64,000 bases of DNA, taken from contig JAIXMN010000028.1 of the NCBI GenBank assembly GCA_025716815.1, forward strand, positions 310,001 through 374,000, read 5' to 3'. The notes beneath the pieces are model-generated. The model saw nothing but the letters and a program-made list of their open reading frames with translations, was not told the origin of the DNA and searched no databases. Numbering within the stretch: position 1 is the stretch's first letter; each line of letters starts with the position of its first letter. Shown here one piece after another: positions 24,078-50,839 of the stretch. This DNA is from Dichotomocladium elegans (lineage: Eukaryota > Mucoromycota > Mucoromycetes > Mucorales > Lichtheimiaceae). Both the position numbers and the translations under genes were made by a program.

Positions 24078-24126
24078 CGAACCAACGCCCGATATCTGTT
24101 ATCAGATCGGACGTCAGGATTATACT

Positions 24127-24198
24127 GCCCACTACTGGAATCGAACCAGTGACCTTCTGCTTACTAGGCAGACGCTCTGCCAACTGAGCCAAGTGGGC
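24127..24198 (-). tRNA. tRNA-Thr(AGT)
   Basis: This 72-nt, intron-less cloverleaf lies on the minus strand. The acceptor GCCCACT pairs with AGTGGGC. The D arm is GCTC/GAGC. The anticodon arm TCTGC/GCAGA has loop CTAGTAA (anticodon AGT). The T arm ACTGG/CCAGT has loop TTCGATT. All stems pair fully, so it should be functional. Its 5' end touches the 5' end of a LINE (24199). The first 16 nt of the gene are duplicated at 29497-29512 on the far side of that LINE. Confidence 0.95.
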
Positions 24199-24246
24199 GA
24201 GACCTTGTCGAGCATCGCGCACGGCGAATACGAGCCCTTTATATAC
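24199..24246 (-). promoter_or_regulatory. LINE 5' terminal block acting as tRNA-Thr upstream flank
   Basis: This 48-bp block matches the corresponding 48 bp next to tRNA-Asn (49914-49961) at about 44 positions with no gap, although the two LINEs are diverged. In tRNA orientation it opens with GTATATAAAG, placing TATATA about 41-48 bp before mature tRNA nucleotide 1, and ends GACAAGGTCTC. A TATA element upstream of tRNA genes is used by Pol III in fission yeast and plants. That it drives this tRNA is inference. Confidence 0.6.
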
Positions 24247-24328
24247 TTTTTTTGCAAAAAATTTCACTACCCCTATTGGCTCGGAAATATATCCCCCCGA
24301 AATTACCGAAACTTCTGAAAACACCCCT

Positions 24329-25804
24329 TTGCACCAAGGAGCACACGTAGATCACCTCGAGGCAATCGAACCATCCTCCTCGAAGCGGAAAAACTCGTGC
24401 TACGTACCTAGAGCCTCAAAGATTCCTGTCCAAAAAAAGACACGTGCTAGTAGTGAAGACCCCCCTACTATGCCAAGAATGCAAGTAAGCAACGTGCGCA
24501 ATACCCCTCGCACTACGACCGCAGCAACCACCCCGCGCCGTACCGGCCACCGCTCACGGGAAGTGTCGCCTGTCCGTCGCCCAGCAGCCTCTAGTGCCAC
24601 CGATCGCCGAACCCGATCGCCAGGCATCGGCGAAATTAACCAACTCGCAATTGGCAAACCGACGATCGACCTGGTTCAATCGGAAAGGGAAGACTTCAAG
24701 TCTACTGACACCCAGAGCGACTCCTTCGCTACGATCCCTTCGCAACTAAATGACACCGAAGTCCTACCTTTGCGTCTACCTGAATGGGCACTCGCATTTG
24801 AACACCGTCTCAGTGCTCAGGATCAAGAGATTGCGAAGCAAAAAGCAATTGTTGCGGAGTTGGCCAGTCTCCTAACACGAAATAAGGAGCTGGAGGCGGA
24901 ATTGGCAGCTGCTAAATTGCAGATCGCCGAGCTGCAGGGGAAATTGGCCCCAGCCGTTTGCTCCACAAAGAGCAACCCTCCCCCCAACGAGCTAATGGAG
25001 CTCGATCCTCGAGGAACAATGGCGTCCAAGTACGCACATACAGGGCCCGTCGTCACGATTGCCCGACCCGTCCCACCAGCCACACCTTCCTTTGCCAGCG
25101 TTGTCCGCAAAGGTGTGCTTAAACCCGAACAGCCGAAAAAGCACAAGACCGCGCAGCCTCGTAAACCGACCCAGGCTTTGCCGGTTAAACCTACCACAGA
25201 AACCATTGAATGGGCCAAACGTGGCTTCTCTGCACCTGCTCAAGAAACCGGGTACAATTTCGTGTACCTGAGAAGCAATCGCCGGTCAAAACATAGCGAG
25301 GTGCGACGCCGCCTACGCCTCCTTGGTGTGGCACAGGCCAGAATCATCGACATTCAATTCCCCAGTAAAGGGGTTATTGGGCTACTTGTCCATCGCTCAT
25401 TCACTGAGGAACTCACCGCAACACTGGCAGGTCATAAGCTGGAACTTTTGACTGACTATGACCCTACTGCCGCTGATTCCCTGAACGATCCCACCCTCGC
25501 CTCCCTCCCAGCAACAGAAAAAGCAGCACAGGCTACAGCAGTATATCAGAAACGAATGCTACGGACTTGCCTGGCATTCCCACAGGCACCGCTCGGCCTT
25601 GCAATCTTACGTTACTTCAACAGCGTCGAAGGATCGCACCATGTTAGTGACGAGAACCTGGCAATATTCCTGCGCAGAAAACCTGCACCCACCCCAACAA
25701 GGCGCACCCGCCTCGGTGATGATGACGAGCTTTTTGCCACGCAAAATAGCATGGCAATCGACGACGAGCAGCTGCCCCAAGACGCAGATAAACACCAGCA
25801 ATAA
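24329..25804 (+). CDS. LINE-Thr ORF1 protein (nucleic-acid-binding chaperone type)
   Basis: The open frame of about 491 codons has no ATG in its first part; the first ATG is near 24470. The N-terminal stretch from 24329 is nevertheless homologous to the start of the LINE-B ORF1 (VPRASKIP versus VPRATKIP). The authentic start has therefore probably been lost, or initiation is non-ATG. A basic Ser/Thr/Arg-rich region comes first. A coiled coil (about residues 165-215, LTRNKELEAELAAAKLQIAE) follows, and then a region conserved with LINE-B ORF1 (KHSEVRRRLRLLGVAQARII, AVYQKRMLRTCL). The ORF ends TAATG, its stop overlapping the ORF2 start by one base. This suggests coupled translation. Confidence 0.75.
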   Translation: MHQGAHVDHLEAIEPSSSKRKNSCYVPRASKIPVQKKTRASSEDPPTMPRMQVSNVRNTPRTTTAATTPRRTGHRSREVSPVRRPAASSATDRRTRSPGIGEINQLAIGKPTIDLVQSEREDFKSTDTQSDSFATIPSQLNDTEVLPLRLPEWALAFEHRLSAQDQEIAKQKAIVAELASLLTRNKELEAELAAAKLQIAELQGKLAPAVCSTKSNPPPNELMELDPRGTMASKYAHTGPVVTIARPVPPATPSFASVVRKGVLKPEQPKKHKTAQPRKPTQALPVKPTTETIEWAKRGFSAPAQETGYNFVYLRSNRRSKHSEVRRRLRLLGVAQARIIDIQFPSKGVIGLLVHRSFTEELTATLAGHKLELLTDYDPTAADSLNDPTLASLPATEKAAQATAVYQKRMLRTCLAFPQAPLGLAILRYFNSVEGSHHVSDENLAIFLRRKPAPTPTRRTRLGDDDELFATQNSMAIDDEQLPQDADKHQQ

Positions 25805-28800
25805 TGCCGAATACCAACTCCACTATCCGCCTGGCAATGTTCAATGCCTCTGGCATTGATCGCTCGCCAGATGAACTTATTCGTCTGTGCGAGAATAATA
25901 ATATTGATATAATCTTACTTACAGAAACATATTTACTTGAAGGCCAACGGCTCCATACTCACTGGCAACAGCATCACAACTTTGCGCAGATCCATGGCAA
26001 CGCACGTAGGGGTTTTGGCGGGCTAACACTCCTCGTGCGACCTGGACTGCCCTATCACATCCACCCGCACCTCCCTCATAGCAATCGCTTTGTACTCTCG
26101 TTCTCGATGGGCGCTTACACATTCCATGGAGTTTACTTCCCGCCACGCACCATGCCCCTCCCCACTTTTCATCGCATACTCCGTTCCCTCCCAATAGATG
26201 ATCACACTTTTGTGTTTGGCGATTTCAACACACGTCTCGGCAACCGTACTGGTGACACCCGTGAAAACGAACGCGCCTACAGCTTCACGCAGTGGCTCAA
26301 TGAGCATAACTTAGTGAACTGGAATGAACGTCTCACATATGGCCAATGTACTTTTCGCAAGGGCGAACACGCCAGCATCATAGACTACTTCGTATCCTCC
26401 GCAACCGCCGTAGGCAGCCCAGCTCTCAAGATATGGGACGAGCTATCTCTTAACTCTGACCATCATCTTTGCCGGCTACGATTCACACCTCTCACCCGAC
26501 TAATCGAATCACCGGCTGATAACGCGGAACGTCAGCATTGGAAGCTACAACGCCTAGAGGAGCCAGAGGTCCGGGACCGTTATGTGTCCGAGTTTTCTCG
26601 CATGGCTGAGCCCATTGAGCAAGCCATCATCGATGCCAACAGTTGCGCTACACCCGACGAACAACGACTCGAGCAGATCAGCAGCATGCTCGAATCAAGC
26701 ATTTACACTGCACTCGACCACAGTGTCACAAGGGGTTGCCTACGACCAAAGCATTGGAAGTGGTTCTGGACACCCGGGTTACAAATGGTCGCGGACACGC
26801 GGCAGGCCATCTATCGGCAGTGGCGATTTGCTACCCCCGGTACTTTAGAACGCGCCGCCCTGTGGGCAGAATATCAGGAAGCCCGGGACAGACTTCAAAG
26901 CGCCATTCGCAGCGAACGCAATCGCCAATGGCGACAATACTGTGCGCGTATGTCCATCGCCTCAGTATCTGAAGCAAACGCAATCATCAAGCGGATAAAG
27001 AGAAACAAGAAGCCCACCCACTTTTTCTCTCGGCCGCAAGGCCCCGCACAAGCCGCCGAAGAAATGGTCTCGCACCTTTTGACAGTTTTTGGAGGTGAGC
27101 AACGAGCGCTATGGTGTCTGCCTCTTGCCCCTCGGCTCCCACCGGTTCCGTGGCTATTCACTAAAGAAGAAATAGCAAAGATCATCAAGACACTCGCACC
27201 ACGCAAAGCTCCTGGGCCTGACCACATCACCGGAGCAATGCTCAAACCAATTGCAACACCGCTCGCACAGATCCTCTCCTCCTTTTTGAGGCTTTGTTGG
27301 CGGTGGTCCTGGACACCTAGTTCATGGCGTAGTGCGCAGGCAGTGCCGATCTTCAAGAAAGGGGACCCCTCAGACGCAGCCAACTACCGACCTATCTGTC
27401 TAACTAGTACATTCCGCAAGATACTCGAACGCTGTCTGCTGCCGACGCTACTGAATGAAATACCAGCCCTCGACATTGCACAAGGCGGATTTCGGGCAAA
27501 TCGAGGAGCCCTTGATCAGGCGTTCAATCTGCACATGCTTTTGCGCCAGTACCATCGACATTACGAGGAGAAGCCGGTGATTGCGTTCCTGGATATCAAA
27601 GCAGCATACGACTCCGTCGACCGGGCTGTCATCTGGGAAGCTCTCACTGGCAGAGTAATGCCCGGTTTACTCCCTCTGCTACAGAACATGTTTGATTGCG
27701 TTCTGATCTCAGTCATACTCAAAGGCAACCAGTCCAGATGGATACGTCCAAGGCGCGGTATACTTCAAGGGTCGATTCTGAGTCCAATCCTCTACGCGAT
27801 CTTCATCGACCAACTTCCAAAGGCGCTAAGAGTTGTCAGCCGCCGCCCACTCCTCCTACGGACCATTCCGGTAGCCCACCTTACCGAGTCGGATGTCAAC
27901 ATAACTGCTCAGACACAAATAGAAACAGAGATTCAGGCAGTAAACTCTCTCCTGTATGCTGACGACATCGCCATCTTTGGTTCACCAGAGGATGTCATGG
28001 ATATGCTCGGAACAGCTGAAAGATATGCAAACCAATTCGGTTTCCAATGGCACCCAGCCAAGTGTGTGGTGCTTAATGCACCCACGAACAACACCACAAC
28101 GTTCTTTGAGCTTGCTAATCAGCGCATTCCCACCGATACTACGTTCACATACCTCGGTATTCCTTTCTCTGGGGACGGAATAGACGTGAACAGATTGATC
28201 AAGCACTCTGCCAAAAAGAGCAAAAATGCCATGCAGCTTCTTCGGAAAGTAGGCGCACATCAGTATGGTTTTGGCATGGGACCCGCTCTCCGCATATACC
28301 GCACTTTTGTTCGGCCTGTTCTCGAGTACGGTCTTGCTATCGCACCACTTAATGCAGAACAAACGAGACTCATCGAAGATGCACAAACCTCATGCGTCCG
28401 AATGGCGACAAACGTCATAAGCCGGCGACCAATCCCCACCATCATCCAGAAACACCTTGCCGATCTTCCGTCAATGGCATTGCGGGCAGCAATCCTTGCA
28501 TTTAAGTTCGTACACCGCGCACATTGGCAGCCGCAAACAACCCTCCTACGCGCAGTGATCCGTTCGTTCTTACAGACCGCTCATGATGGAGAAACTGACC
28601 CGCACTGGCGCACCATCACGTCTGGCGCAGCATTGTGGCGGGACTACACCGACCTTGCTGCTGACCCCCCGCATCCACGCGATCCTATAGCCGAACTCAT
28701 TATTGAAACCCACCGCGATCTTGAACTCGAGACCCGCCGAGAGAAGTTCCCCGCTGTGGCCCGTGCCCGTCCAACCCGCATGTGGGATCCAATCCTATAC

Positions 28801-29175
28801 CTACCAGCAACAACCCGACAGCGGCATCGGTTAGTCAAGTGGAGAGCGCACTGGTTACCGTCGTTCCCGCCTAAAGACTGCCGATGTGGTTTCCGCAAGG
28901 CAAAGCGAAACCATTACCTTGAGTGTCCTCTGATTGATGGCATGATACAGCAGCTAGAACAGAGCCTCGGTAACCGCATAGAATCCAAGGACCCAGAAAC
29001 ACACTTGTTGGATTTTATATTCAACATGTTGCCCCGCTCAGATGGAGGTATCACTCGTGATCATTGGCGTACGACCTGGCCTACGCTCCTCAACACACTT
29101 AGGGATATTGACATCCTTAGTCATCCGGAGTCGACGTTCGAGGCGGAAGAACCGGCCCGGATATCAAGAGACTAA
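25804..29175 (+). CDS. LINE-Thr ORF2: APE endonuclease-reverse transcriptase (1123 aa)
   Basis: An intact ORF. An apurinic-endonuclease-like nuclease domain occupies about residues 1-235 (LTETYL, FVFGDFNTRLGN, LNSDHHL). The reverse transcriptase lies at about 430-760, with RKAPGPDHITGAML, FLDIKAAYDSVDR (about 594-606), RRGILQGSILSP and the catalytic YADD at 718-721. A C-terminal cysteine/histidine motif, CRCGFRKAKRNHYLECPL, is the usual LINE zinc knuckle. The nuclease nicks target DNA and the RT primes on the nick. Here the target appears to be the tRNA A box. All expected catalytic motifs are visible, so this copy may be active apart from the doubtful ORF1 start. Confidence 0.92.
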   Translation: MPNTNSTIRLAMFNASGIDRSPDELIRLCENNNIDIILLTETYLLEGQRLHTHWQQHHNFAQIHGNARRGFGGLTLLVRPGLPYHIHPHLPHSNRFVLSFSMGAYTFHGVYFPPRTMPLPTFHRILRSLPIDDHTFVFGDFNTRLGNRTGDTRENERAYSFTQWLNEHNLVNWNERLTYGQCTFRKGEHASIIDYFVSSATAVGSPALKIWDELSLNSDHHLCRLRFTPLTRLIESPADNAERQHWKLQRLEEPEVRDRYVSEFSRMAEPIEQAIIDANSCATPDEQRLEQISSMLESSIYTALDHSVTRGCLRPKHWKWFWTPGLQMVADTRQAIYRQWRFATPGTLERAALWAEYQEARDRLQSAIRSERNRQWRQYCARMSIASVSEANAIIKRIKRNKKPTHFFSRPQGPAQAAEEMVSHLLTVFGGEQRALWCLPLAPRLPPVPWLFTKEEIAKIIKTLAPRKAPGPDHITGAMLKPIATPLAQILSSFLRLCWRWSWTPSSWRSAQAVPIFKKGDPSDAANYRPICLTSTFRKILERCLLPTLLNEIPALDIAQGGFRANRGALDQAFNLHMLLRQYHRHYEEKPVIAFLDIKAAYDSVDRAVIWEALTGRVMPGLLPLLQNMFDCVLISVILKGNQSRWIRPRRGILQGSILSPILYAIFIDQLPKALRVVSRRPLLLRTIPVAHLTESDVNITAQTQIETEIQAVNSLLYADDIAIFGSPEDVMDMLGTAERYANQFGFQWHPAKCVVLNAPTNNTTTFFELANQRIPTDTTFTYLGIPFSGDGIDVNRLIKHSAKKSKNAMQLLRKVGAHQYGFGMGPALRIYRTFVRPVLEYGLAIAPLNAEQTRLIEDAQTSCVRMATNVISRRPIPTIIQKHLADLPSMALRAAILAFKFVHRAHWQPQTTLLRAVIRSFLQTAHDGETDPHWRTITSGAALWRDYTDLAADPPHPRDPIAELIIETHRDLELETRREKFPAVARARPTRMWDPILYLPATTRQRHRLVKWRAHWLPSFPPKDCRCGFRKAKRNHYLECPLIDGMIQQLEQSLGNRIESKDPETHLLDFIFNMLPRSDGGITRDHWRTTWPTLLNTLRDIDILSHPESTFEAEEPARISRD

Positions 29176-29496
29176 GATGTACACCTTCCTTTCCCACCCA
29201 CCAGCCACGACCACATTCGCCAATATATATTTATCATTATTTCTTTCTTTTCCCGTGTAGGTTAGAGCCATATATCTTATCCTGATTATTTATACGTACT
29301 CCGTTGCTGTACCACACATTCATATCTTCAGTTGTTCCCTCCTACGCTCGGCTTTTTTCCCCATTGGGGTTTTTGTCGAGGCCAGTTCCTCCTCCCTCCT
29401 TTGTACCTCCCCACATTAGGAATTCATATTGGACAGGCACATGGCTGTAGCCGCTCGCCCCAGGATGTCCTCTTAAATAAAAAACAAACATTTTCG

Positions 29497-29512
29497 ACTG
29501 AGCCAAGTGGGC
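29497..29512 (-). repeat. 16-nt duplicated tRNA-Thr 5' stub
   Basis: An exact copy of tRNA-Thr nucleotides 1-16 (reverse strand), left at the LINE 3' junction. The DNA beyond it (from 29513) does not contain the 48-bp block, so the original tRNA upstream flank lies here. Confidence 0.9.
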
Positions 29513-37976: not shown

Positions 37977-38468
37977 GGCGATTCCAGCATGGAAGTTGAG
38001 TCGCCGACCTATATAGTTAAATTCTGCGTTGATTGCTGTCGATGACACCGATGTCTTTTCAGAGACGAAACTTTCAGGCTATTCGTCTCCAAAGCGACAG
38101 TTTTTCCTCAGGGGACATGTGTTTTAATTAGCAAATTATTTAACTATCAAATCGGCCATAGAACTACTATGCAGTTCATGATTTTCTTTTAACAAATTAT
38201 GGACCATCTCCCTTGAGAAGTTGAAGTCAATGCCAGCTTGCAGTGCATGAAGAAATTTATAGTATGCTCCGTTCGATGTGACCAACGAAGGTTACCACAA
38301 CGCAAGCCCGTCGACACCAAGTGGGGCACCACTTCTGAGATGTGTGCATCAGTCAAACATGCTGACATATCCGTTGTCCTTCTTTTCACCGTTATTTCTT
38401 CCGCCAGATCAACTCGTGGAAACACCGCGTCTAGACCTCATCTATTCTTTACGATGTTTACGACAGAA
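37977..38468. other. Spacer, no gene seen
   Basis: Open frames here are short and overlap on both strands. Nothing recognisable. Confidence 0.4.
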
Positions 38469-38767
38469 TGTGGTGGTCAGAGAGTTAGTCACAGGCGTTA
38501 AAACCATTAAGGCCAAGACGGAGTCTTTGAGACGGGATCCCTTTATTCAATAAAAGCAACTCTCCTTTTATATGTTTCGGACCAGGGTGGTAGTGGTAAT
38601 ACAAGCGGCAGTCATCGAGCATTGTCCCCCAACCATTACCAGTTAGCGGGCTTCGTAACGTTGGAATGGGAGGACAGTCAAGGCGTGCTGTAGAAGAGGT
38701 GGGTAAGCTGATAACCCTGCTCAGTACTGTCGGTAGAAGCGCAGTGTTATGAACAGTAGCTATGACA
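38469..38767 (-). repeat. Solo LTR without matching TSD
   Basis: A 299-bp copy (TGTGGTGG to CTATGACA) closely similar to 38833-39135. The flanking 5-mers CAGAA and CATTT differ, so the left flank was probably lost by recombination or deletion. Beyond its right end the sequence is the truncated 5' end of a LINE. Confidence 0.8.
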
Positions 38768-39176
38768 CATTTGTTGGGGCGCAAATTTCGATGGATAGGA
38801 GAAAGAGTTTTACCGAAAAAACTATTAAAGACTGTGGTGGTTAGAGAGTTAGTTGCAGGTGTTTAAACCGTAGGGGCTAAAATCGAGTCTTTGAGACGGG
38901 ATCCTCTTTATTGAATAAAAACAACTCTCTTTTTATATGATTTCGGACCAGGGTGGTAGTGGTGATACAAGCGGTAGTCATCGAGCATGGTCCTCCAATC
39001 ATTACCAGTTAGCGGGCTTCGTAACGTTGGAATGGGAGGACAGTCGAGACGTGCTGTAGAAGAGGTGGATAAGTCGATAACCCTGCTCAGTACTGTCTGT
39101 AGAAGCGCAGTGTTATGAACAGTAGGGCTATGACAAAGACCACAAATTCGTCGCGCGCGATGTTCGACAAGGTCTC
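38768..39176 (-). mobile_element. Terminal fragment of an older LINE (LINE-0), split by a solo LTR
   Basis: The pieces 38768-38832 and 39141-39176 together match the 5'-terminal about 100 bp of LINE-A and LINE-B (from TTGTTGGGGCG to GACAAGGTCTC). The coding part is missing, cut off at the solo LTR to its left. The TATATAAAG motif has decayed to CTATTAAAG. The fragment abuts a 17-nt tRNA-Asn stub, so it marks an earlier insertion at the same tRNA gene. Confidence 0.8.
38833..39135 (-). repeat. Solo LTR, TSD AAGAC
   Basis: A 303-bp LTR flanked by AAGAC at 38828-38832 and 39136-39140. Removing it joins the two halves of the LINE-0 terminus exactly as in LINE-A/B, which confirms the insertion. 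Confidence 0.92.
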
Positions 39177-39193
39177 GCTTCTATGGCGCAATT
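39177..39193 (+). pseudogene. tRNA-Asn stub (nt 1-17)
   Basis: GCTTCTATGGCGCAATT is identical to the first 17 nt of the complete tRNA-Asn at 49962. It is cut off by the 3' end of LINE-A. Confidence 0.9.
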
Positions 39194-39354
39194 GAAAAGT
39201 TATTTATTGGTTTTGGAGCATGGTTGTGGCCGGCGCCTGTGGGCATGTGGTCACTCCGTGACAGTACAGAAGGATTTCATATAAAATTAAGGTTACAATG
39301 CCGATCAGAATGGTGCATTAAAAAACCTCCCAAAATAGGAAAAGTCAACCACCT

Positions 39355-39749
39355 TGTGGTGTTTTAGTTGTTTTTTAAGTTGGACAGTTAGAATACGATG
39401 AGACTCGTGGATGTCTTTTATTCGAATGAAATCGGACTAAGATCCTCCATCGCTACACATTTATCTACTATTTATATGATTTATGGCAGAGGTCCTAATT
39501 AGGTCAACTGGCTACTCCGTCTTACACGGATACTCGGAGATGGTAGCACTATTACAGATAAGGTGCTTGTGTGTGTATCGATGACCTCTATCATACGTTA
39601 TATGTCCTTGTTCCTTTCAGACCATCCTCACGTCGGTAAAACCTCATAAAAACCCAGTGGGAGAAAAATAGAGGGAAAAAGACTGTGGAAATGGATCTGG
39701 TTATAACGCGGCGTCATGGATCCTTCAATCCGTAATCACCTATGCGACA
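39355..39749 (-). repeat. Solo LTR nested in LINE-A, TSD CACCT
   Basis: A 395-bp LTR (TGTGGTG to ATGCGACA) flanked by CACCT at 39350-39354 and 39750-39754. The uninterrupted sequence is seen in LINE-B at about 44940-44950. It belongs to the same family as 51874-52274. Confidence 0.92.
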
Positions 39750-39858
39750 CACCTGCCAAAAAAAAAAGAATATAGACCCAAAATGGGAGAAAATGAAAAT
39801 GAGAAAAAAGAGCATGTGATGCTAATACCAGACACCAAGAGAAAGGCCTCAGGTGGAG

Positions 39859-42800
39859 TTAGTCAGCCAGCTCGACGCGGGCAGCTTCAAGTGCCGCTTG
39901 AACAGCTTCAGCCATGGGAGCAGAGGGATCATCGTCGTCGTCTTCGAAATCATCAGCATCGGGGTGGCTAAGAAAGTCGACGCGGCGCAGATAGTGCAGC
40001 AAGGCTGGCCAGGCGAGCTGCCAGCGCCCGCTCTGGAGCTTGTCTGCTGATCGTGGCAGGCTGTTGATGATGTGGTCAACGGGGTGGAGCGCATTTGAGA
40101 CCGGTACAAAGCCAAAGGCGCGTTTGAGGGCCAATGCGGCCTGCTCCACCAGAGGACACTCCGTGTAGTGCGTACGCGTGGCAGCCTCAGCCCCGCAGCG
40201 GCAGTTCTTGAGCGGGAAGGAGGGAAGCCAATGGAGACGCCAGTTCACCAGGCGATGCCGATCACGTGAGGTGGCGGGGAGAAACAGCACCGGGTCAATC
40301 TGGCGCGTAGGTCGTAGGCGGGCGACAGCTGGTTTCTGGGCGCGACGCTTCTCCAGCTCAAGATCGCGGTGGTGTAGCACTGCTTCACGGACTGGATATT
40401 GAGGTGGCTCATCTGACAAAACGAGGCCACGCCAGGTGGTCCAAAGAGGGTTGGCACGCGAGATTTTACGCCACGGCTCATCGGTCCGCTGGTGTTGCAG
40501 GAAGGACAAAATGACCGCACGCAGCATTGTCGGAGTCGGTAATGCATTGCCGCGCGTCACAAACTTGACCTGCAGGATTCGCATTCGCAATGTCATTGAC
40601 GGGAGATCGGCCATCACCATTGGCACAATCGTTGGCAATCGGCGGGCAGTCGGCTGGTTCATTGCAAGCTTGACGCAGCTTTCTTGCGCCTTTTGGAGGA
40701 GGGCGAGCTGGTCGTATGTTAAGGGGGCTATGGCAAGGCCATACTCGAGAATGGGGCGAACAAAGGTACGATACGTACGCAGTGCTGCCCACAGACCGAG
40801 ACCATAACGATGCACCCCCATATGTCGGAACGTAGCCATCACACCTGTGGCCTTGCTAATGCGGTCTTGTACCAGTTGGTCGCGGTCAATGCCTTCTTTG
40901 CTGAAAGGGATGCCAAGGTATTTGAATGCTTGCACCACTGGAAGAGGCCGCGAGTACAACGTAAAAATGTCACTAGCTGGAGCATTCAGTACTGCGCATT
41001 TTTCAGGGTTCCACCGGTATCCTAGCTGGCGCGAGTGTCGCTCTGCCATGCCCAGCATGTGGCACATGTCCTCAGCAGTACCAAAGAGGGCAACGTCGTC
41101 GGCGTAGAGCAGTGCGTTGACTGGCATGATGTGGTTGTCGATCCGAGGTGGGGGCCGGCCGCCACCAGGGCTTCGATAGTAGCGGAGACGGTTGCTTGCT
41201 TCTTCAGAAACCCCCTCGAGGCTTGTTGTGCGAAGGAGGAGGGGCCGGCGCAGGTGTGCATTAACTCGGAGGGCCGTCGGGAGCGTGTCGATGAAAATGG
41301 CGTAGAGCAGAGGGCTAAGGATCGAGCCTTGCAGGACGCCTTTTGCGGGCCGGATGAAGTGCGATTGGTAGTTTTTCAGGATGACAGCCAGCTGAACATC
41401 CTCAAACAAATGACGACAGAGCCGAAAGGAAGCAGGTGGGAGGTGCCCACGCAGGTGTTCCCAGATGACCTGGCGATCCACAGAGTCATACGCCGCTTTG
41501 ATGTCGAGGAACGCAACCACTGGCCATTCACCATGCTCCTGCTGAAATCGACGCATGAGAATGTACAGCGAGAAGGCTTGGTCCAAGGCACCGCGGTTCT
41601 CCCTAAAGCCACCTTGTGCCATATCCAATGCAGGTATGTGATCGAGCAAGTGCGGCAGCAGGCATCGCTCGAGTATCTTGCGAAAGAGGCTGGTGAGACT
41701 GATCGGACGATAGTTACTCGGCTGTGAGGGATCTCCTTTCTTGTAGATGGGGACTACTTGGGCGGTCCGCCATCCAGGAGGGGTCCACGACCAGCGCCAG
41801 CACAGGGTAAACAACGCCTCCAGGAGTTTGGACAGAGGGATGGCGATGGGCTTGAGCATTGCCCCAGTGATGTGATCGCTTCCGGGGGCTTTCCGCGACG
41901 GCATTTGCTTGATGATAGCACGAATGTCCGAGGCATTAAAGGGCGATATGCCAAGCAGGGATGGGTCGATGGCTGCAGGAGGGGTGGAGTCTACCAAACG
42001 ATTTCCGCCAAAAACTTGCTCGAGATGAGTTGCCATGCTGGAGGCAGCGTGCAGTGGACCATCAGGATGGGAGAGGGTGGTGGGGGCAGTACGGCTGCGG
42101 CGCATGCGCTTGAGGACGGCATTGACCTCGCCTTGTGTTCGCTGTTCCATGGCTTTGCAAAATTGCTTCCACTGTTGGCGGCGTGTCAATCTTAGTTCCC
42201 TTCCGAAGGCTTTCTTCGCGGCCTGGAACCGATTCCACAGCATGGAGCGATTGACTAGGTCACCAGGGGCGTTTCGCCAGCGGCGGTATTCTTCTTCACG
42301 TCGATCTGCGAGACGCTGGAGCTCGTCATTCCAGAACCATTTCCAGTGACGAGGTCGCATCTTTTCACGCGTGACGCTCGCATCCAAGGCGGACTGGATG
42401 CTGGCGGTGATCCGGTCACCGAAATCCTCTATTAGGTGACGATGGCAGATATGAAACTCGTCGGTCAGATGTGAGAGAATCTCGTCAAGCAGAGGATCTG
42501 TTGCGATGGTGAACTTGTCGATGAAAAGAGCCATGATATCCGGGTCGTTGAGTCGTTGTAGCCGCCAATGTTGCCGGGGCGCTGTAGGTTCTGGTAGTGT
42601 TGTTAGAGGCGTGACTGTCCAGAACGAGAAGACACACAGGTGGTGGTCTGAGTTGAGAGAGACATCGCTGCAGATCACCAGGGACGGATCTCTTACAGCT
42701 AACCGGTTTGAGATGAACAGGTCGATGATGCTCGTGCCCAGGGCAGATGCAAATGTGGGCTGGCCATAGGTGAGTGAACCATTCCAGATATGCAAGCCAT

Positions 42801-43280
42801 GCTGTATCACCCAGTCGCGAAGAGTAGGACCGCGGTCGTTCTGGTCGTGGTCACCGAGTGAGCGGAGCCGAGTGTTGAGATCACCAAGGACGATGGTGCG
42901 GTCGTCGATGGTGAGGCTGTCGAGAAGGTCACGGATTGTAAGAAGGTCGAGGATGGCGGTAAGTAGAGGGAGTGCACTGTATAAGGCCCCATGGTGAAGG
43001 TGAGGATATAGGGCGAGGTGATGGCATGTGAGTGGATATGGAAAGGCAAGTCAGGGCGGGCCAAGAGTGAGACACCGCCAAAACCGCGTGTGCCATTGCG
43101 CGGCCTGCGCGCATAGTTGTGGGTTTGCGTCCAATGTGTGTTGAGTCGACCTTGCATAAGGTATGTTTCTGTGAGAATTAAAATGTCGACATTCATGTTG
43201 GTGCAATGTCGAACCACCTCGTCAGGCGACCGGTTGATGCCAGCCGCGTTTAATAGACCGATGCAAAGTCGATCTATCAT
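39859..43280 (-). pseudogene. LINE-A ORF2 (APE-RT), one frameshift
   Basis: This matches LINE-B ORF2 over its whole length. The start and most of the endonuclease lie at 43280-42807. One base is missing near 42955 (GGTCGAGGATGG against AGATCGAGTGATGG in LINE-B), shifting the frame before the nuclease motifs are complete. The larger downstream frame (42810-39859) keeps RKAPGSDHITGAML, FLDIKAAYDSVDR, LLYADDVALFG and the terminal CRCGAEAATRTHYTECPL knuckle. Otherwise no stop interrupts it. The lesion is a single base, so the copy is young or the base is a sequencing error. Confidence 0.88.
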
Positions 43281-44614
43281 TGACTGTCGTGCATTTCGTC
43301 GTCGTCCACATCTCGGCTAATGCCGAGAATCTTTTCAGCTTCTTCCACAGATGGGATTGGCCGCGGGGCAGGTCGTACTGGGCGTTGACGGACCGCCTGG
43401 AATTGCGTTAGTACGGTAGCATCCAAATGGTGCGGGTCGTCCACGTCGGTATTCACAAAATGTTGCAAGATCGAGAAACCCAGATGTGCCTTGGGCATTC
43501 GAAGACAGGCTCGAAGCATCCGTTGTTGATAGAGCTCGCGGGCTTTTGCGACACGTTCCTCTGCTGTAAATCCGGCATACGCCGGCTGAATGATGGTGTT
43601 GGCTGCGATGGGATCAAAATCGATGGTGGTGATCTTGGCCTCTGCGAGTTTCGCCTTAAGTTCGCACACAAATGATGCGTGTACCAGCAAACTGGTAACA
43701 CCGCGAACTGGGAAGTGTACATCAATGATGCGCCCTTGAGGGACACCCAGAATTGAGAGTGCCCGTCGGATCTCACTGTGTTGTGTGCGGCGTGGTGATG
43801 CAAAGGACAGCATAGCATAACCTCGGTTCTCCGGAGATGCTGCGGCTGCAAAGCAGCGGGTTGCCCAGGTGAGCATGCCTTCAGTAGGTTGATCGGTGCG
43901 CTGCCGACGGCGCTGGGCGCGAGAGGGGGGTGTGTTTTTCCGTGCTACTGAGGCCCATGTGAGCTGGCTAGCAGTGGATGTTGCGTTCACTGGACGATGG
44001 CGTGAGTCCATGGTGGAAGATCCCGGCACTGCGACTGCATCCATGAATCGTACAACGGCTGGTGTGCCTTCAGGCTGGTTGCTCTCGACCTGCATCGGAT
44101 TTTCTTCCGTCTGTTGTAGTGAGTTACGTAAGGTACTCAGCTCCTTCCGCAGTGCTGCAGTAGATGCCCTTTCCTGGGCGAGGTCTGCCTTGAGCTGGTC
44201 CCGTTCAGCAAGTAGCTCCTGGAGTTGGTTCATCATCGTGTCATGTGCGGATAATAGCTTCGCCTGCTCGGAGAGCTGATGTTGCACACTCTGTACCCAA
44301 TTAAATAAATTAATGGAGTGTGGGAGTTCTACCATGGCTTCCGCCTGGTTTTCGTTCTTGTGCACTTCCTCCATCAAGTTCGCAAATGTCTGCTTGGTTC
44401 GCTCTGCCGACTGCGAAGTTGGCAGACTGTTGCTGATCGGTGTGGCTGATGTTGACTCTATCTCGGAATAATAGCGTCCTGGCGCATTGGTGAAGGTTGC
44501 ATCATTCGCTTTTTCACCGGCTGTGGTGGGCCTGGGATCTTTGTTGCACGTGGCACAAGTGAATGCCTACGCTTTGCACGTGTGTTGGGAGCCGTGGTGC
44601 TGCTGTCAGGCACG
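43277..44614 (-). pseudogene. LINE-A ORF1, one frameshift
   Basis: It is identical in layout to the intact LINE-B ORF1, but one G is missing near 44468 (GGAATAATAG against GGAAGTAATAG). The open frame is therefore cut to 43277-44377, from an internal Met, with the N-terminal part in another frame. Its stop overlaps the ORF2 start by four bases (ATGA). Confidence 0.85.
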
Positions 44615-44767
44615 TTAGAAGTGTCGGTGGTGGTTGCGGGAGTCGTAATGGAGTTTGTAATGGTGGCAGTTGTTGGGGCGAAAATTTCGACGGGCCGGAG
44701 AAAGTGTTTTACCGAAAAAGTATATAAAGACCTCGAATTCGCCGCGCGCGATGCTCGACAAGGTCTC

Positions 44768-44784
44768 GCTTCTATGGCGCAATT
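44768..44784 (+). pseudogene. tRNA-Asn stub (nt 1-17)
   Basis: A second identical 17-nt stub, between the 5' end of LINE-A and the 3' end of LINE-B. It is preceded by the intact 48-bp LINE terminus (44720-44767). Confidence 0.9.
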
Positions 44785-45054
44785 GAAAAGTTATTTATTG
44801 GTTTTGGAGCATGGTTGTGGCCGGCGCCTATGGGCATGTGGCCGCTCCGTGACAGTACAAAAGGATGTCGGATAAAAATTAAAGTTACAATGCCGATCAG
44901 AATGGTGCATTAAAAAACCCCCAAAAGAGGAAAAAGTCAACCACCTGTCAAAAAAAAAAAAAGAATATAGACCAAAAATGGGAGAAAATGAAAATGAGAA
45001 AAAAAGAGCATGTGATGCTAATACCAGACACCAAGAGAAAGGCCTCAGGTGGAG

Positions 45055-48000
45055 TTAGTCAGCCAGCTCGACGCGGGCAGCTTCAAGTGCCGCTTGAACA
45101 GCTTCAGCCATGGGAGCAGAGGGATCGTCGTCGTCTTCGAAATCATCAGCATCGGGGTGGCTAAGAAAGTCGACGCGGCGCAGATAGTGCAACAAGGCTG
45201 GCCAGGCGAGCTGCCAGCGCCCGCTCTGGAGCTTGTCTGCTGATCGTGGCAGGCTGTTGATGATGTGGTCAACGGGGTGGAGCGCATTTGAGACCGGTAC
45301 AAAGCCAAAGGCGCGTTTGAGGGCCAATGCGGCCTGCTCCACCAGAGGACACTCCGTGTAGTGCGTACGCGTGGCAGCCTCAGCCCCGCAGCGGCAGTTC
45401 TTGAGCGGGAAGGAGGGAAGCCAATGGAGACGCCAGTTCACCAGGCGATGCCGATCACGTGAGGTGGCGGGGAGAAACAGCACCGGGTCAATCTGGCGCG
45501 TAGGTCGTAGGCGGGCGACAGCTGGTTTCTGGGCGCGACGCTTCTCCAGCTCAAGATCGCGGTGGTGTAGCACTGCTTCACGGACTGGATATTGAGGTGG
45601 CTCATCTGACAAAACGAGGCCACGCCAGGTGGTCCAAAGAGGGTTGGCACGCGAGATTTTACGCCACGGCTCATCGGTCCGCTGGTGTTGCAGGAAGGAC
45701 AAAATGACCGCACGCAGCATTGTCGGAGTCGGTAATGCATTGCCGCGCGTCACAAACTTGACCTGCAGGATTCGCATTCGCAATGTCATTGACGGGAGAT
45801 CGGCCATCACCATTGGCACAATCGTTGGCAATCGGCGGGCAGTCGGCTGGTTCATTGCAAGCTTGACGCAGCTTTCTTGCGCCTTTTGGAGGAGGGCGAG
45901 CTGGTCGTATGTTAAGGGGGCTATGGCAAGGCCATACTCGAGAATGGGGCGAACAAAGGTACGATACGTACGCAGTGCTGCCCACAGACCGAGACCATAA
46001 CGATGCACCCCCATATGTCGGAACGTAGCCATCGCACCTGTGGCCTTGCTAATGCGGTCTTGTACCAGTTGGTCGCGGTCAATGCCTTCTTTGCTGAAAG
46101 GGATGCCAAGGTATTTGAATGCTTGCACCACTGGAAGAGGCCGCGAGTACAACGTAAAAATGTCACTAGCTGGAGCATTCAGTACTGCGCATTTTTCAGG
46201 GTTCCACCGGTATCCTAGCTGGCGCGAGTGTCGCTCTGCCATGCCCAGCATGTGGCACATGTCCTCAGCAGTACCAAAGAGGGCAACGTCGTCGGCGTAG
46301 AGCAGTGCGTTGACTGGCATGATGTGGTTGTCGATCCGAGGTGGGGGCCGGCCGCCACCAGGGCTTCGATAGTAGCGGAGACGGTTGCTTGCTTCTTCAG
46401 AAACCCCCTCGAGGCTTGTTGTGCGAAGGAGGAGGGGCCGGCGCAGGTGTGCATTAACTCGGAGGGCCGTCGGGAGCGTGTCGATGAAAATGGCGTAGAG
46501 CAGAGGGCTAAGGATCGAGCCTTGCAGGACGCCTTTTGCGGGCCGGATGAAGTGCGATTGGTAGTTTTTCAGGATGACAGCCAGCTGAACATCCTCAAAC
46601 AAATGACGACAGAGCCGAAAAGAAGCAGGTGGGAGGTGCCCACGCAGGTGTTCCCAGATGACCTGGCGATCCACAGAGTCATACGCCGCTTTGATGTCGA
46701 GGAACGCAACCACTGGCCATTCACCATGCTCCTGCTGAAATCGACGCATGAGAATGTACAGCGAGAAGGCTTGGTCCAAGGCACCGCGGTTCTCCCTAAA
46801 GCCACCTTGTGCCATATCCAATGCAGGTATGTGATCGAGCAAGTGCGGCAGCAGGCATCGCTCGAGTATCTTGCGAAAGAGGCTGGTGAGACTGATTGGA
46901 CGATAGTTACTCGGCTGTGAGGGATCTCCTTTCTTGTAGATGGGGACTACTTGGGCGGTCCGCCATCCAGGAGGGGTCCACGACCAGCGCCAGCACAGGG
47001 TAAACAACGCCTCCAGGAGTTTGGACAGAGGGATGGCGATGGGCTTGAGCATTGCCCCAGTGATGTGATCGCTTCCGGGGGCTTTCCGCGACGGCATTTG
47101 CTTGATGATAGCACGAATGTCCGAGGCATTAAAGGGCGATATGCCAAGCAGGGATGGGTCGATGGCTGCAGGAGGGGTGGAGTCTACCAAACGATTTCCG
47201 CCAAAAACTTGCTCGAGATGAGTTGCCATGCTGGAGGCAGCGTGCAGTGGACCATCAGGATGGGAGAGGGTGGTGGGGGCAGTACGGCTGCGGCGCATGC
47301 GCTTGAGGATGGCATTGACCTCCCCTTGTGTTCGCCGTTCCATGGCTTTGCAAAATTGCTTCCACTGTTGGCGGCGTGTCAATCTTAGTTCCCTTCCAAA
47401 GGCTTTCTTCGCGGCCTGGAACCGATTCCACAGCATGGAGCGATTGACTAGGTCACCAGGGGCGTTTCGCCAGCGGCGGTATTCTTCTTCACGTCGGTCT
47501 GCGAGACGCTGGAGCTCGTCATTCCAGAACCATTTCCAGTGACGAGGTCGCATCTTTCCACGCGTGACGCTCGCATCCAAGGCGGACTGGATGCTGGTGG
47601 TGATCCGGTCACCGAAATCCTCTATTAGGTGACGATGGCAGATATGAAACTCGTCGGTCAGATGTGAGAGAATCTCGTCAAGCAGAGGATCTGTTGCGAT
47701 GGTGAACTTGTCGATGAAAAGAGCCATGATATCCGGGTCGTTGAGTCGTTGTAGCCGCCAATGTTGCCGGGGCGCTGTAGGTTCTGGTAGTGTTGTTAGA
47801 GGCGTGACTGTCAGAACGAGAAGACACACAGGTGGTGGTCTGAGTTGAGAGAGACATCGCTGCAGATCACCAGGGACGGATCTCTTACAGCTAACCGGTT
47901 TGAGATGAACAGGTCGATGATGCTCGTGCCCAGGGCAGATGCAAATGTGGGCTGGCCATAGGTGAGTGAACCATTCCAGATATGCAAGCCATGCTGTATC

Positions 48001-48473
48001 ACCCAGTCGCGAAGAGTAGGACCGCGGTCGTTCTGGTCGTGGTCACCGAGTGAGCGGAGCCGAGTGTTGAGATCACCAAGGACGATGGTGCGGTCGTCGA
48101 TGGTGAGGCTGTTGAGAAGGTCACGGATTGTAAGAAGATCGAGTGATGGCGGTAAGTAGAGGGAGTGCACTGTATAAGGCCCCATGGTGAAGGAGAGGAT
48201 ATAGGGCGAGGTGATGGCATGTGGGTGGATATGGAAAGGCAAGTCAGGGCGGGCCAAGAGTGAGACACCGCCAAAACCGCGAGTGCCATTGCGCGGCCTG
48301 CGCGCATAGTTGTGGGTTTGCGTCCAATGTGTGTTGAGTCGACCTTGCATAAGGTATGTTTCTGTGAGAATTAAAATGTCGACATTCATGTTGGTGCAAT
48401 GTCGAACCACCTCGTCAGGCGACCGGTTGATGCCAGCCGCGTTTAATAGACCGATGCAAAGTCGATCTATCAT
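45055..48473 (-). pseudogene. LINE-B ORF2 (APE-RT), one frameshift
   Basis: The N-terminal endonuclease frame covers 48473-47811 (LTETYLM, VLGDLNTRLRS, LNSDHHLCVFSF). One C is missing near 47815 (GACTGTCAGAA against GACTGTCCAGAA in LINE-A), immediately after the nuclease domain. The remaining 924 codons (47829-45055) carry the complete reverse transcriptase (FLDIKAAYDSVDR, YADD) and the zinc knuckle. The lesion is at a different place from that in LINE-A, so neither copy encodes an uninterrupted protein, although each retains what the other has lost. Confidence 0.88.
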
Positions 48474-49807
48474 TGACTGTCGTGCATTTCGTCGTCGTCC
48501 ACATCTCGGCTAATGCCGAGAATCTTTTCAGCTTCTTCCACAGATGGGATTGGCCGCGGGGCAGGTCGTACTGGGCGTTGACGGACCGCCTGGAATTGCG
48601 TTAGTACGGTAGCATCCAAATGGTGCGGGTCGTCCACGTCGGTATTCACAAAATGTTGCAAGATCGAGAAACCTAGATGTGCCTTGGGCATTCGAAGACA
48701 GGCTCGAAGCATCCGTTGTTGATAGAGCTCGCGGGCTTTTGCGACACGTTCCTCTGCTGTAAATCCGGCATACGCCGGCTGAATGATGGTGTTGGCTGCG
48801 ATGGGATCAAAATCGATGGTGGTGATCTTGGCCTCTGCGAGTTTCGCCTTAAGTTCGCACACAAATGATGCGTGTACCAGCAAACTGGTAACACCGCGAA
48901 CTGGGAAGTGTACATCAATGATGCGCCCTTGAGGGACACCCAGAATTGAGAGTGCCCGTCGGATCTCACTGTGTTGTGTGCGGCGTGGTGATGCAAAGGA
49001 CAGCATAGCATAACCTCGGTTCTCCGGAGATGCTGCGGCTGCAAAGCAGCGGGTTGCCCAGGTGAGCATGCCTTCAGTAGGTTGATCGGTGCGCTGCCGA
49101 CGGCGCTGGGCGCGAGAGGGGGGTGTGTTTTTCCGTGCTACTGAGGCCCATGTGAGCTGGCTAGCAGTGGATGTTGCGTTCACTGGACGATGGCGTGAGT
49201 CCATGGTGGAAGATCCCGGCACTGCGACTGCATCCATGAATCGTACAACGGCTGGTGTGCCTTCAGGCTGGTTGCTCTCGACCTGCATCGGATTTTCTTC
49301 CGTCTGTTGTAGTGAGTTACGTAAGGTACTCAACTCCTTCCGCAGTGCTGCAGTAGATGCCCTTTCCTGGGCGAGGTCTGCCTTGAGCTGGTCCCGTTCA
49401 GCAAGTAGCTCCTGGAGTTGGTTCATCATCGTGTCATGTGCGGATAATAGCTTCGCCTGCTCGGAGAGCTGATGTTGCACACTCTGTACCCAATTAAATA
49501 AATTAATGGAGTGTGGGAGTTCTACCATGGCTTCCGCCTGGTTTTCGTTCTTGTGCACTTCCTCCATCAAGTTCGCAAATGTCTGCTTGGTTCGCTCTGC
49601 CGACTGCGAAGTTGGCAGACTGTTGCTGATCGGTGTGGCTGATGTTGACTCTATCTCGGAAGTAATAGCGTCCTGGCGCATTGGTGAAGGTTGCATCATT
49701 CGCTTTTTCACCGGCTGTGGTGGGCCTGGGATCTTTGTTGCACGTGGCACAAGTGAATGCCTACGCTTTGCACGTGTGTTGGGAGCCGTGGTGCTGCTGT
49801 CAGGCAC
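48470..49807 (-). CDS. LINE-B ORF1 protein (445 aa)
   Basis: Intact, with an ATG start. The basic N-terminus (KRRHSLVPRATKIPGPP) is followed by a coiled coil around residues 120-170 (LQELLAERDQLKADLAQERA). A C-terminal region shared with LINE-Thr ORF1 includes QHSEIRRALSILGVPQGRII and ELYQQRMLRACLRMP. L1-type ORF1 proteins trimerise through the coiled coil and bind the element RNA. The same role is inferred here. The stop overlaps the ORF2 start by four bases (ATGA), a stop-restart arrangement that favours coupled translation. Confidence 0.85.
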   Translation of the reverse strand: MPDSSTTAPNTRAKRRHSLVPRATKIPGPPQPVKKRMMQPSPMRQDAITSEIESTSATPISNSLPTSQSAERTKQTFANLMEEVHKNENQAEAMVELPHSINLFNWVQSVQHQLSEQAKLLSAHDTMMNQLQELLAERDQLKADLAQERASTAALRKELSTLRNSLQQTEENPMQVESNQPEGTPAVVRFMDAVAVPGSSTMDSRHRPVNATSTASQLTWASVARKNTPPSRAQRRRQRTDQPTEGMLTWATRCFAAAASPENRGYAMLSFASPRRTQHSEIRRALSILGVPQGRIIDVHFPVRGVTSLLVHASFVCELKAKLAEAKITTIDFDPIAANTIIQPAYAGFTAEERVAKARELYQQRMLRACLRMPKAHLGFSILQHFVNTDVDDPHHLDATVLTQFQAVRQRPVRPAPRPIPSVEEAEKILGISRDVDDDEMHDSQ

Positions 49808-49913
49808 GTTAGAAGTGTCGGTGGTGGTTGCGGGAGTCGTAATGGAGTTTGTAATGGTGGCAGTTGTTGGGGCGAAAATTTCGACGGGCCGGAGAAAGTG
49901 TTTTACCGAAAAA

Positions 49914-49961
49914 GTATATAAAGACCTCGAATTCGCCGCGCGCGATGCTCGACAAGGTCTC
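49914..49961 (+). promoter_or_regulatory. LINE 5' terminal block acting as tRNA-Asn upstream flank
   Basis: In tRNA orientation it begins GTATATAAAG and ends GACAAGGTCTC, directly touching the tRNA. About 44 of 48 positions match the block beside tRNA-Thr (24199-24246), and the spacing to the tRNA is the same. A promoter role for Pol III is inference from the TATA position. Confidence 0.6.
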
Positions 49962-50034
49962 GCTTCTATGGCGCAATTGGCTAGCGCGTCTGACTGTTAA
50001 TCAGGAGGTTGGTGGTTCGAGCCCACCTAGGAGC
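49962..50034 (+). tRNA. tRNA-Asn(GTT)
   Basis: This 73-nt intron-less cloverleaf has acceptor GCTTCTA/TAGGAGC with one G-T pair. The D arm is GCGC/GCGC. The anticodon arm TCTGA/TCAGG has loop CTGTTAA (anticodon GTT). The T arm is GGTGG/CCACC with loop TTCGAGC. It appears functional. Its 5' neighbour is the LINE-B 5' end. Three copies of its first 17 nt are found in this array: this gene and two stubs. Confidence 0.95.
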
Positions 50035-50067
50035 GATTGTAAAATTGAAAGAACAATTTGAGTTACC

Positions 50068-50074
50068 TTTTTTT
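50068..50074 (+). terminator. Pol III terminator of tRNA-Asn
   Basis: Seven T, beginning 34 nt downstream of the tRNA 3' end. Confidence 0.75.
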
Positions 50075-50243
50075 ACTGAATTTCAGTAGATCACGTGACT
50101 CTTGTTTGTTTTGGCGGAGGGGGAGGGAGACAGGTATGTGATGACCTTTTTATTATCGCAATAGCATGGGTATTTATAGTAGACATCATTAGTGAACAGA
50201 ATAAACATAGAGAATTAATAGATGTGGAGTAGAAGTAAATGCA

Positions 50244-50277
<34 letters not shown>

Positions 50278-50839
50278 CATTGCATGTTAGAAGTGAACGC
50301 TCTCGCATAATCCGCTTTTTATTTGTCATGACAACATTATACTTCCAATGAAGCTATGTAGTTAATTGTGCTGTGTGATCGGAAGTCTCGATCGTGATAC
50401 TCATCGTTTTTTTTTATTTTCTTGTGCATGATGTAAGAGTTGGATTGGACAAGGTAAGATAGAAGTACAGATGCCAAGAGGTGAACCAGAAGGAATCGTA
50501 TGGAAACGAAGAAACAAGACAACTAATTATTATTTATTATCAATATTACTAATGTTAGACATATGAGTGCATAAAACTATGTCGCGGAAAGGACTGATGG
50601 CAATAATTACGATATGAACTTCATTGGCGATCGATATAGGAGGTAAACTGCAAGCCCGATCAAGGACCATTACACATGAATTGTGGTACCAATCAGACCG
50701 ACCTGCTGTCAGGACCCAAAGAGGGTATTATTTGAAAACATCTATCCCAGACTAAGGTTTATCCGCCAAAAATAATCGTCGTTTTGTCATTTTTCTTTTC
50801 AGTTCCCCACAGGCAAATACAACGAAGAATAGAGTTTTG
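50075..50839. other. Repeat-derived spacer with a 30-A tract
   Basis: No gene supported. A perfect run of 30 A lies at 50247-50276. The stretch at about 50470-50660 matches about 23395-23640 in the same orientation, including GAACCAGAAGGAATCGTATG and a GATCGATATAGGAG block. It is therefore a dispersed repeat, probably LTR-type, without clear borders. Confidence 0.55.

Follow-up and report, generated by a model that had tools for sequence, protein, structure and literature searches.

The 64,000-nucleotide stretch of Dichotomocladium elegans DNA analysed here (hereafter the window; C44:310001-374000 in a 39.4-Mb assembly of 122 contigs) holds, at 38768-50035, an array of long interspersed nuclear elements (LINEs) stacked in a tRNA-Asn gene. 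We are highly confident that these LINEs represent non-long-terminal-repeat (non-LTR) retrotransposons with an apurinic/apyrimidinic (APE)-type endonuclease that insert site-specifically in the A box of tRNA genes, rebuild the gene and stack upon it. The array, whose order was read from the assembly sequence, comprises the following features, with positions given within the window and the coding parts named by open reading frame (ORF), reverse transcriptase (RT) and untranslated region (UTR):

38768..38832, minus strand: first part of the LINE-0 5' UTR remnant, 84.8% identical to the LINE-B 5' end over 66 columns
38833..39135, unstranded: solo LTR inside the LINE-0 5' end, 303 bp, with 5-bp duplications AAGAC (boundaries read by eye)
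39136..39176, minus strand: LINE-0 5' terminus, joined to tRNA nucleotide 1, 90.5% identical to the LINE-B 5' end over 42 bp and matching the 21-mer used below with one mismatch
39177..39190, plus strand: tRNA-Asn stub, nucleotides 1-14 (first read as 17 nucleotides)
39191..44767, minus strand: LINE-A, full length plus a solo LTR, with the ORF2 frame in two pieces
39355..39749, unstranded: solo LTR in the LINE-A 3' UTR, 395 bp, with 5-bp duplication CACCT (read from the sequence)
44768..44781, plus strand: tRNA-Asn stub, nucleotides 1-14
44782..49961, minus strand: LINE-B, 5,180 bp
45055..47829, minus strand: LINE-B ORF2, RT part (924 aa, RVT_1)
47811..48473, minus strand: LINE-B ORF2, APE endonuclease part (220 aa; PF14529, PF03372), in an open frame apart from the RT part
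48470..49807, minus strand: LINE-B ORF1 (445 aa; no Pfam family above cut-off)
49915..49922, plus strand: TATATAAA in the LINE 5' end, at -47 to -40 from tRNA nucleotide 1
49953..49955, plus strand: CAA at -9 in the LINE-derived leader, inside the CAA range of native tRNA leaders
49962..50035, plus strand: intact, regenerated tRNA-Asn(GTT)

Along the plus strand the array thus runs from a LINE-0 5' remnant through a stub, LINE-A, a second stub and LINE-B to an intact tRNA-Asn gene. This is the order proposed in the original prediction, and it is borne out by the LINE alignments, the intact tRNA and three exact copies of the 17-mer GCTTCTATGGCGCAATT (at 39177, 44768 and 49962; shuffle mean 0.15 at ≤3 mismatches), of which only the one at 49962 runs on into a whole tRNA-Asn(GTT). 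The LINEs do share one orientation, as had been claimed, although this needed correcting: they lie on the minus strand, with the stubs adjoining their 3' ends and tRNA nucleotide 1 adjoining their 5' ends. LINE-A and LINE-B share 99.48% identity over 5,013 bp and 93.3% over another piece of 180 bp at the 3' end, and ~400 bp remain unaligned between them because of the solo LTR at 39355-39749 in LINE-A. Nothing but the 5' end is left of LINE-0, 85-90% identical to LINE-B and in two parts around a solo LTR; aligned over 303 columns, this LTR is 89.8% identical to another solo LTR at 38469-38767. In an Rfam scan of 38000-50400, the tRNA alone reached the cut-off.

Domain content places the elements among the non-LTR retrotransposons: LINE-B and LINE-D (a second unit in the window, described below) both carry RVT_1, Exo_endo_phos_2 and Exo_endo_phos, together with an upstream ORF (ORF1) in which no Pfam family exceeded the cut-off. 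The AP-like endonuclease lies N-terminal to the RT in both, as in APE-type LINEs, and the closest solved-structure matches to ORF2 were to LINE-1 ORF2p. General Pfam scans, a weak test for this purpose, detected no restriction-like endonuclease (RLE) family of the NeSL/R2 type. No RNase H family was found in Pfam at E ≤ 0.1 (LINE-B) or E ≤ 0.001 (LINE-D); RNase H after the RT is missing from some members of the Tad1/I group clades. Relatives of ORF2 in the protein database (n = 22) include named sequences from Lichtheimia (52-57%), Circinella minor (43-44%) and Rhizopus delemar (37%). For a host gene (DUF7082), the top named relative among the best 120 of 1,201 matches is from Circinella umbellata, followed closely by Fennellomyces and further Mucoromycota, in keeping with a Mucorales host. 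In a midpoint-rooted ORF2 tree with long branches, built with these protein-database relatives and no named LINE clade references, families A, B, C and D of the present elements group with Lichtheimia, Circinella and further relatives (92/97), and a group inserted at tRNA-Val joins both groups found at non-tRNA sites (96/99). A tblastn search of a viral contig database recovered no LINE relative; two exact 20-mer matches in that database had flanks alike over 150 bases and no tRNA on their loci.

The original prediction had proposed a genome-wide tabulation of LINE ends, with a majority outside tRNA genes as the adverse outcome; the reverse was found, with 55 of 59 5' termini adjoining tRNA. 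In the tRNA sense the LINE 5' terminus ends CGCGATGCTCGACAAGGTCTC, for which there were 59 matches at ≤3 mismatches versus one for a reversed-pattern control; the 21-mer detects whole termini only, and an earlier, longer query found 40 places. Next to these termini stands an intact tRNA gene in 29 cases, a stub and then a further LINE, joined by its 3' end, in 26 and neither in four. The exact joint is tRNA nucleotide 1 in 49/55 (shifted by 1 in four, by 7 in one and by -2 in one), across 11 gene types: Asn, Met, Ile, Lys, Phe, Tyr, Thr-AGT, Thr-CGT, Glu-CTC, Glu-TTC and Asp. One of the four exceptions, C36, is without a LINE leader, and the other three end at CTCGACAA joined to TGACAC, short of a tRNA. 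At the C85 exception, where a tRNA-Ile gene preceded by ACAAGGTCTC follows after ~1.6 kb, the LINE terminus and tRNA-Ile are probably separated by another element. LINE/tRNA units on contigs C13, C112, C95, C79, C74 and C81 lie ≤~1.2 kb from a contig end, which may reflect an assembly break or a subtelomeric position.

The opposite, 3' ends were approached through ORF2, with 59 matches, ten of them second pieces of the same copy, leaving at least 49 distinct copies (manual count). Judged by eye from the sequences, their 3' joints comprise 33 tRNA stubs (five degenerate or partial), six fixed non-tRNA sites and ten unreadable cases. Among the 30 best copies, 23 have a stub (two degenerate: C68:1839372 and C55:200198) and in these the ORF2 match extends to residue 897-924 of 924, the other seven ending at 574-888. 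The 19 remaining copies include C13:105331, with an Asn stub; the other 18 divide into nine with a stub (degenerate or partial in C71, C91 and C101), six at a fixed non-tRNA site (C31 twice, C68, C34:204650, C43 and C31:742194) and three without a clear joint (C106, C59 and C55:212342). At C41 (Phe), C44-D (Thr) and C79 (Thr) the stub is directly preceded by flank without the LINE motif. The fixed non-tRNA targets are GGAGGCACATGG and GGGATACACAGCAG (C31:497031-504804; C68:173227-175806, C43:87141-89720, C31:739614-742193), and the stretches fetched beside these LINEs contained no Rfam match at cut-off.

Comparison of joints between families fixes the length of the duplication. In tRNA-Ile, with G15 in the gene, the family A joint reads GCTCGCTTAGCTCA then ATTGAAAAG; in tRNA-Asn, with A15, the family B joint reads GCTTCTATGGCGCA then GTCAAAAC; and in tRNA-Lys, also with A15, the family D joint reads GCTCA then GTCGAAAATG. 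Because base 15 beside the LINE differs from that of the tRNA, it is the LINE that supplies base 15 onwards, and the duplication covers nucleotides 1-14. The joint therefore falls after A14, within the A box, so that the predicted insertion inside the A box holds beyond the array also. The stubs had been read as 17 nucleotides long, and an identical 17-mer does occur at three positions, but the true duplication is 14 nucleotides: the LINE 3' end mimics tRNA nucleotides 15-18 to a varying extent, and the limit is invisible in the array because tRNA-Asn and the LINE end have the same next letters. Across the 22 copies with both ends, this flanking target duplication is identical in 17 as computed, or in 18 with C45 shifted by one base.

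One recent family uses several isotypes: comparison of 4,528 bp, out of ~5,300, revealed no difference between the family D copies inserted at tRNA-Phe, tRNA-Thr(AGT) and tRNA-Lys. Against the Phe and Thr copies, the one at Thr(CGT) shows 2-3 mismatches, and a second Thr(AGT) copy shows 8-9 against the others. (C60 and C63 align over 5,428 bp at 95.1% but are not comparable, as the alignment enters older LINEs beside both.) Such identity beside different isotypes also bears on whether the tRNA gene is simply a passenger carried by the LINE, as a tRNA gene or stub after 55/59 termini might suggest; the far-end stub moreover matches the local tRNA in 18/22 copies (C45 read one base along), and a passenger gene, contradicted on both counts, is extremely improbable. 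What the sites of a family do share is A-box letters. With leader types sorted by our own patterns and the four sites without an adjacent tRNA excluded, nucleotides 8-14 of the target read TRGCTCA at 20/20 family D sites, TGGTCTA, TGGTCCA or TAGTATA at 19/19 family C sites, and TRGCGCA (14/16) or TAGCTCA (2/16) at A/B sites. The target is thus a tRNA gene, tRNA-Asn included, as originally proposed, and yet not tRNA-Asn as such but genes of a given A-box subtype. More distant groups adjoin intact genes for tRNA-Gln (C46), tRNA-Ser (C34) and tRNA-Val (C2), again with stubs ending at A14.

The stack in the window grew by separate insertions, because LINE-B is nearer to copies on C35 (0.25% mismatch) and C68 (0.35%) than to LINE-A (0.54%; copies on C55 and C13, 1.2%); LINE-A is as near to C35 (0.52%) as to LINE-B. 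The most diverged copy, LINE-0, is also the farthest from the tRNA, as predicted for growth at the tRNA side, and this growth, like regeneration of the gene, holds beyond the array as well. Unequal crossing-over, by which one LINE plus stub would have been duplicated in tandem, could draw on the 99.5% likeness of LINE-A and LINE-B and on copies with unlike tRNA ends, which suggest that recombination occurs. It is nonetheless improbable: it sits poorly with the closer relatives on C35 and C68 and with the 10-15% divergence of LINE-0, and duplication of one LINE cannot produce the mixed-family stacks on C13 (1.06-1.07 Mb), C55 and C68. Nor does assembly artefact seem credible, even though some units lie near contig ends (e.g. 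C13, C112), given the 28 mismatches and a solo LTR that separate LINE-A from LINE-B and the single insertions and stacks on many contigs. The order of the array is supported by its mutually differing copies and by stacks on other contigs.

The most likely course of insertion would begin with the element endonuclease nicking the tRNA gene just past A14 on its sense strand. The freed A14 end would serve as the primer from which the LINE RNA, with last bases that mimic tRNA positions 15-18, is reverse-transcribed. A cut in the opposite strand at nucleotide 1 would duplicate nucleotides 1-14, and the joining of the LINE 5' end to nucleotide 1 would leave a complete, rebuilt tRNA gene. The rebuilt gene would again be a full target, which the next LINE of a suitable family could enter at the same place, so that the stack would grow on the tRNA side and leave 14-nucleotide stubs behind. 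Both the order of nicking and direct reading of the A box by the endonuclease are proposed from the junctions. Elements might alternatively be guided by the RNA polymerase III (Pol III) machinery, through TFIIIB or through TFIIIC bound to the A box, and not by reading A-box DNA, much as Dictyostelium TRE5-A is reported to be targeted through host DNA-binding proteins (PMC3706591). The A-D sites are all tRNA genes and hence Pol III genes, and LTR-like leaders end ~10 bp upstream of tRNA genes in the manner of Ty3 in 16/59 cases (own sorting). However, the insertion position is fixed (offset 0 in 49/55), relatives occupy fixed non-tRNA sites, and the families sort by the letters of nucleotides 8-14 (D 20/20, C 19/19), for which a common factor alone is insufficient. 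We regard Pol III guidance as rather unlikely and prefer direct reading of the A box.

Insertion of this kind leaves the tRNA gene behind a leader derived from the antisense strand of the LINE, from which its promoter function may be recovered and the gene may be expressed. A pattern for the tRNA-Asn anticodon and T-arm (≤3 mismatches) found four genes, all four with a LINE at nucleotide 1; ARAGORN added two tRNA-Asn(GTT) genes of different sequence on C12 (12.7 kb, assumed mitochondrial). Cytoplasmic tRNA-Asn would therefore have to come from LINE-bordered genes, if the assembly is complete. Among nine tRNA-Ile(AAT) genes, five have a LINE leader, three an LTR-like end ~11 bp upstream and one neither; the three LTR-like cases keep apparent last LINE bases (acaagatctcc, acaaggtctct and gacaaggtctc). 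For comparison, 23 native leaders were obtained from 59 tRNA matches (from 63 scored of 1,319 candidates) by removing five on C12 and C16 (assumed mitochondrial), 15 with LINE leaders and 16 with LTR-like leaders, sorted by our own rules; one of the 23, C57:332789, closely follows another tRNA. CAA occurs at -14 to -5 in 16/23 native leaders (shuffle mean 4.1), and the LINE CAA at -9 fits this range. LTR-like elements end at the LINE CAA, which suggests indirectly, by analogy with the cited accounts of Ty3 and Tj1 (PMC5911963, PMC4600332), that Pol III may start there in the LINE leader. LTR-like families end ~9-13 bp upstream of different tRNA genes, in Ty3-like fashion (C24:636644, C2:352582, C13:30309, C79:571470 and others), and some LTR-like sequences appear inside the LINE-derived leader.

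Families whose proteins are ~50% identical have kept the final ~45 bp of the LINE 5' end in common. An HDV (hepatitis delta virus)-like ribozyme is not supported as the cause: of a seven-pair P1, pair 5-37 was kept in 1/10 and pair 4-38 in 4/10 distinct rows, and in this small test no change on both sides was seen in P1 or in a predicted hairpin 7-29. In the Gln, Ser and Val groups the 5' end is of another kind and lacks the A-D motif, so the leader idea is limited to A-D. No 5'-truncated LINE emerged beside intact tRNA genes when 59 leaders were compared with 19 test loci: beyond the 5'-terminal motif, the matches were, by coordinates, just flanks or LTR-like sequence (C84, C77 twice and C58).

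Several observations weigh against our account of A-box-specific, gene-rebuilding LINEs. On C1, ~670 bp of other sequence separate the end of the LINE match from tRNA-Gln (a gene not among the 59 tRNA matches), C38 has no tRNA on the 5' side within the fetched stretch, and C101 adjoins a cut-off tRNA-Val. Five LINE termini end before reaching a tRNA; at C55:19485 and C13:35884, found with the longer query and missed by the 21-mer, the last bases are lost and other sequence adjoins. The six of 49 copies at fixed non-tRNA sites form two related groups, and ten of 49 copies offer no readable 3' joint. Copy counts are lower bounds, as 49 of 206 ORF2 candidates were scored, and junction counts overstate events per tRNA gene because sites in one stack share a gene and are not independent. 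TATA mimicry by the LINE leader had to be rejected: the TATA at -47 that all three leader groups (A/B, C and D) show, some copies excepted, lies off the native positions. In 14/23 native leaders TATA falls at -37 to -22 (shuffle mean 3.9), against 3/23 with one at -50 to -38 (mean 3.2). Finally, four of the 22 two-ended copies have unlike tRNAs at their ends: C13a-1 (Met/Asn), C95 (Tyr/Ile), C58-2 (two Glu types) and C21 (Asp/Glu). These copies (C13:99540-104768, C95:11743-17057, C58:5492-10736 and C21:3746-9025) give the impression of recombination between two tRNA/LINE loci; an ectopic exchange between LINEs would account for them, and something else is also conceivable.

A second unit lies elsewhere in the window, outside the array, and represents a single insertion in tRNA-Thr(AGT) spanning 24126-29512:

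24126..24198, minus strand: intact tRNA-Thr(AGT)
24199..29498, plus strand: LINE-D, with ORF1 (24329-25804) and ORF2 (25804-29175) both open; this is the Thr(AGT) copy that matches the tRNA-Phe and tRNA-Lys copies without difference across 4,528 bp
29499..29512, minus strand: tRNA-Thr stub, nucleotides 1-14, then unrelated flank

Between the two LINE units, window positions 30319-35196 encode a Ty3/gypsy polyprotein with a chromodomain, in a frame that stays open for 1,625 aa.

The NeSL-related lineage of non-LTR retrotransposons carries a restriction-like endonuclease, whereas the fungal LINEs are of the APE type. Elements of that lineage already described as specific for tRNA genes are NeSL-1_TV (tRNA-Pro), LIN15_SM (tRNA-Arg) and LIN25_SM (tRNA-Glu); they resemble the fungal LINEs in this specificity but have one named tRNA each, where a single fungal family uses several isotypes (PMC4640811). 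Dewa is also tRNA-linked, but sits in a tRNA-Leu gene spacer and not inside the gene (PMC3706591). Dada DNA transposons, known from five fish lineages and from Perkinsus families, do insert in the A box (nucleotides 8-13) of various tRNA genes (PMC3706591, PMC8869645), with a DDE transposase and a 6-7 bp duplication, in contrast to RT, APE and a gene-rebuilding duplication of 14 nucleotides from nucleotide 1. Dictyostelium TRE5/TRE3 and NLTR-A aim at tRNA genes from outside (TRE5 40-54 bp, NLTR-A 2-6 bp upstream; PMC5911963, PMC5006619), whereas the fungal LINE has its 5' end at nucleotide 1 and its 3' end after nucleotide 14. Ty3-like elements, whose integration at Pol III starts is tied to tRNA genes (PMC5911963, PMC4600332), differ in having LTRs and an integrase and in lying upstream of the gene. 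R1 and R2 share a fixed site in a multicopy RNA gene, but their insertion disrupts the rRNA gene unit (PMC3706591). Among the literature matches listed, which exclude preprints and scarcely cover subscription papers, none described an APE-type LINE within tRNA genes, or any such LINE in Mucoromycota. We know of no stack on a rebuilt target for R1/R2 or other site-specific LINEs. As far as searched, an APE-type, A-box-sorted, gene-rebuilding and stacking fungal LINE group is new; the novelty claimed in the original prediction is narrowed to this form, since LINEs specific for tRNA genes have already been published from another lineage (PMC4640811).

These elements illustrate how LINEs can use essential genes without destroying them, in that the duplicated target keeps the gene alive and open to the next insertion. 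More tentatively, it is a real possibility, to which we give a little under even weight, that the families of this clade share out the tRNA genes according to A-box subtype and supply each gene, in antisense from the LINE 5' end, with a substitute Pol III leader. The tRNA genes would then serve as self-renewing docking sites, and the whole nuclear supply of tRNA-Asn in this genome may use LINE leaders. A transposon-supplied promoter of an essential tRNA thereby becomes a testable question. Sister families with different tRNA motifs could make target choice by an APE endonuclease mappable letter by letter. For gene delivery, a genomic site that recurs many times and can be entered with the gene preserved is of interest too.

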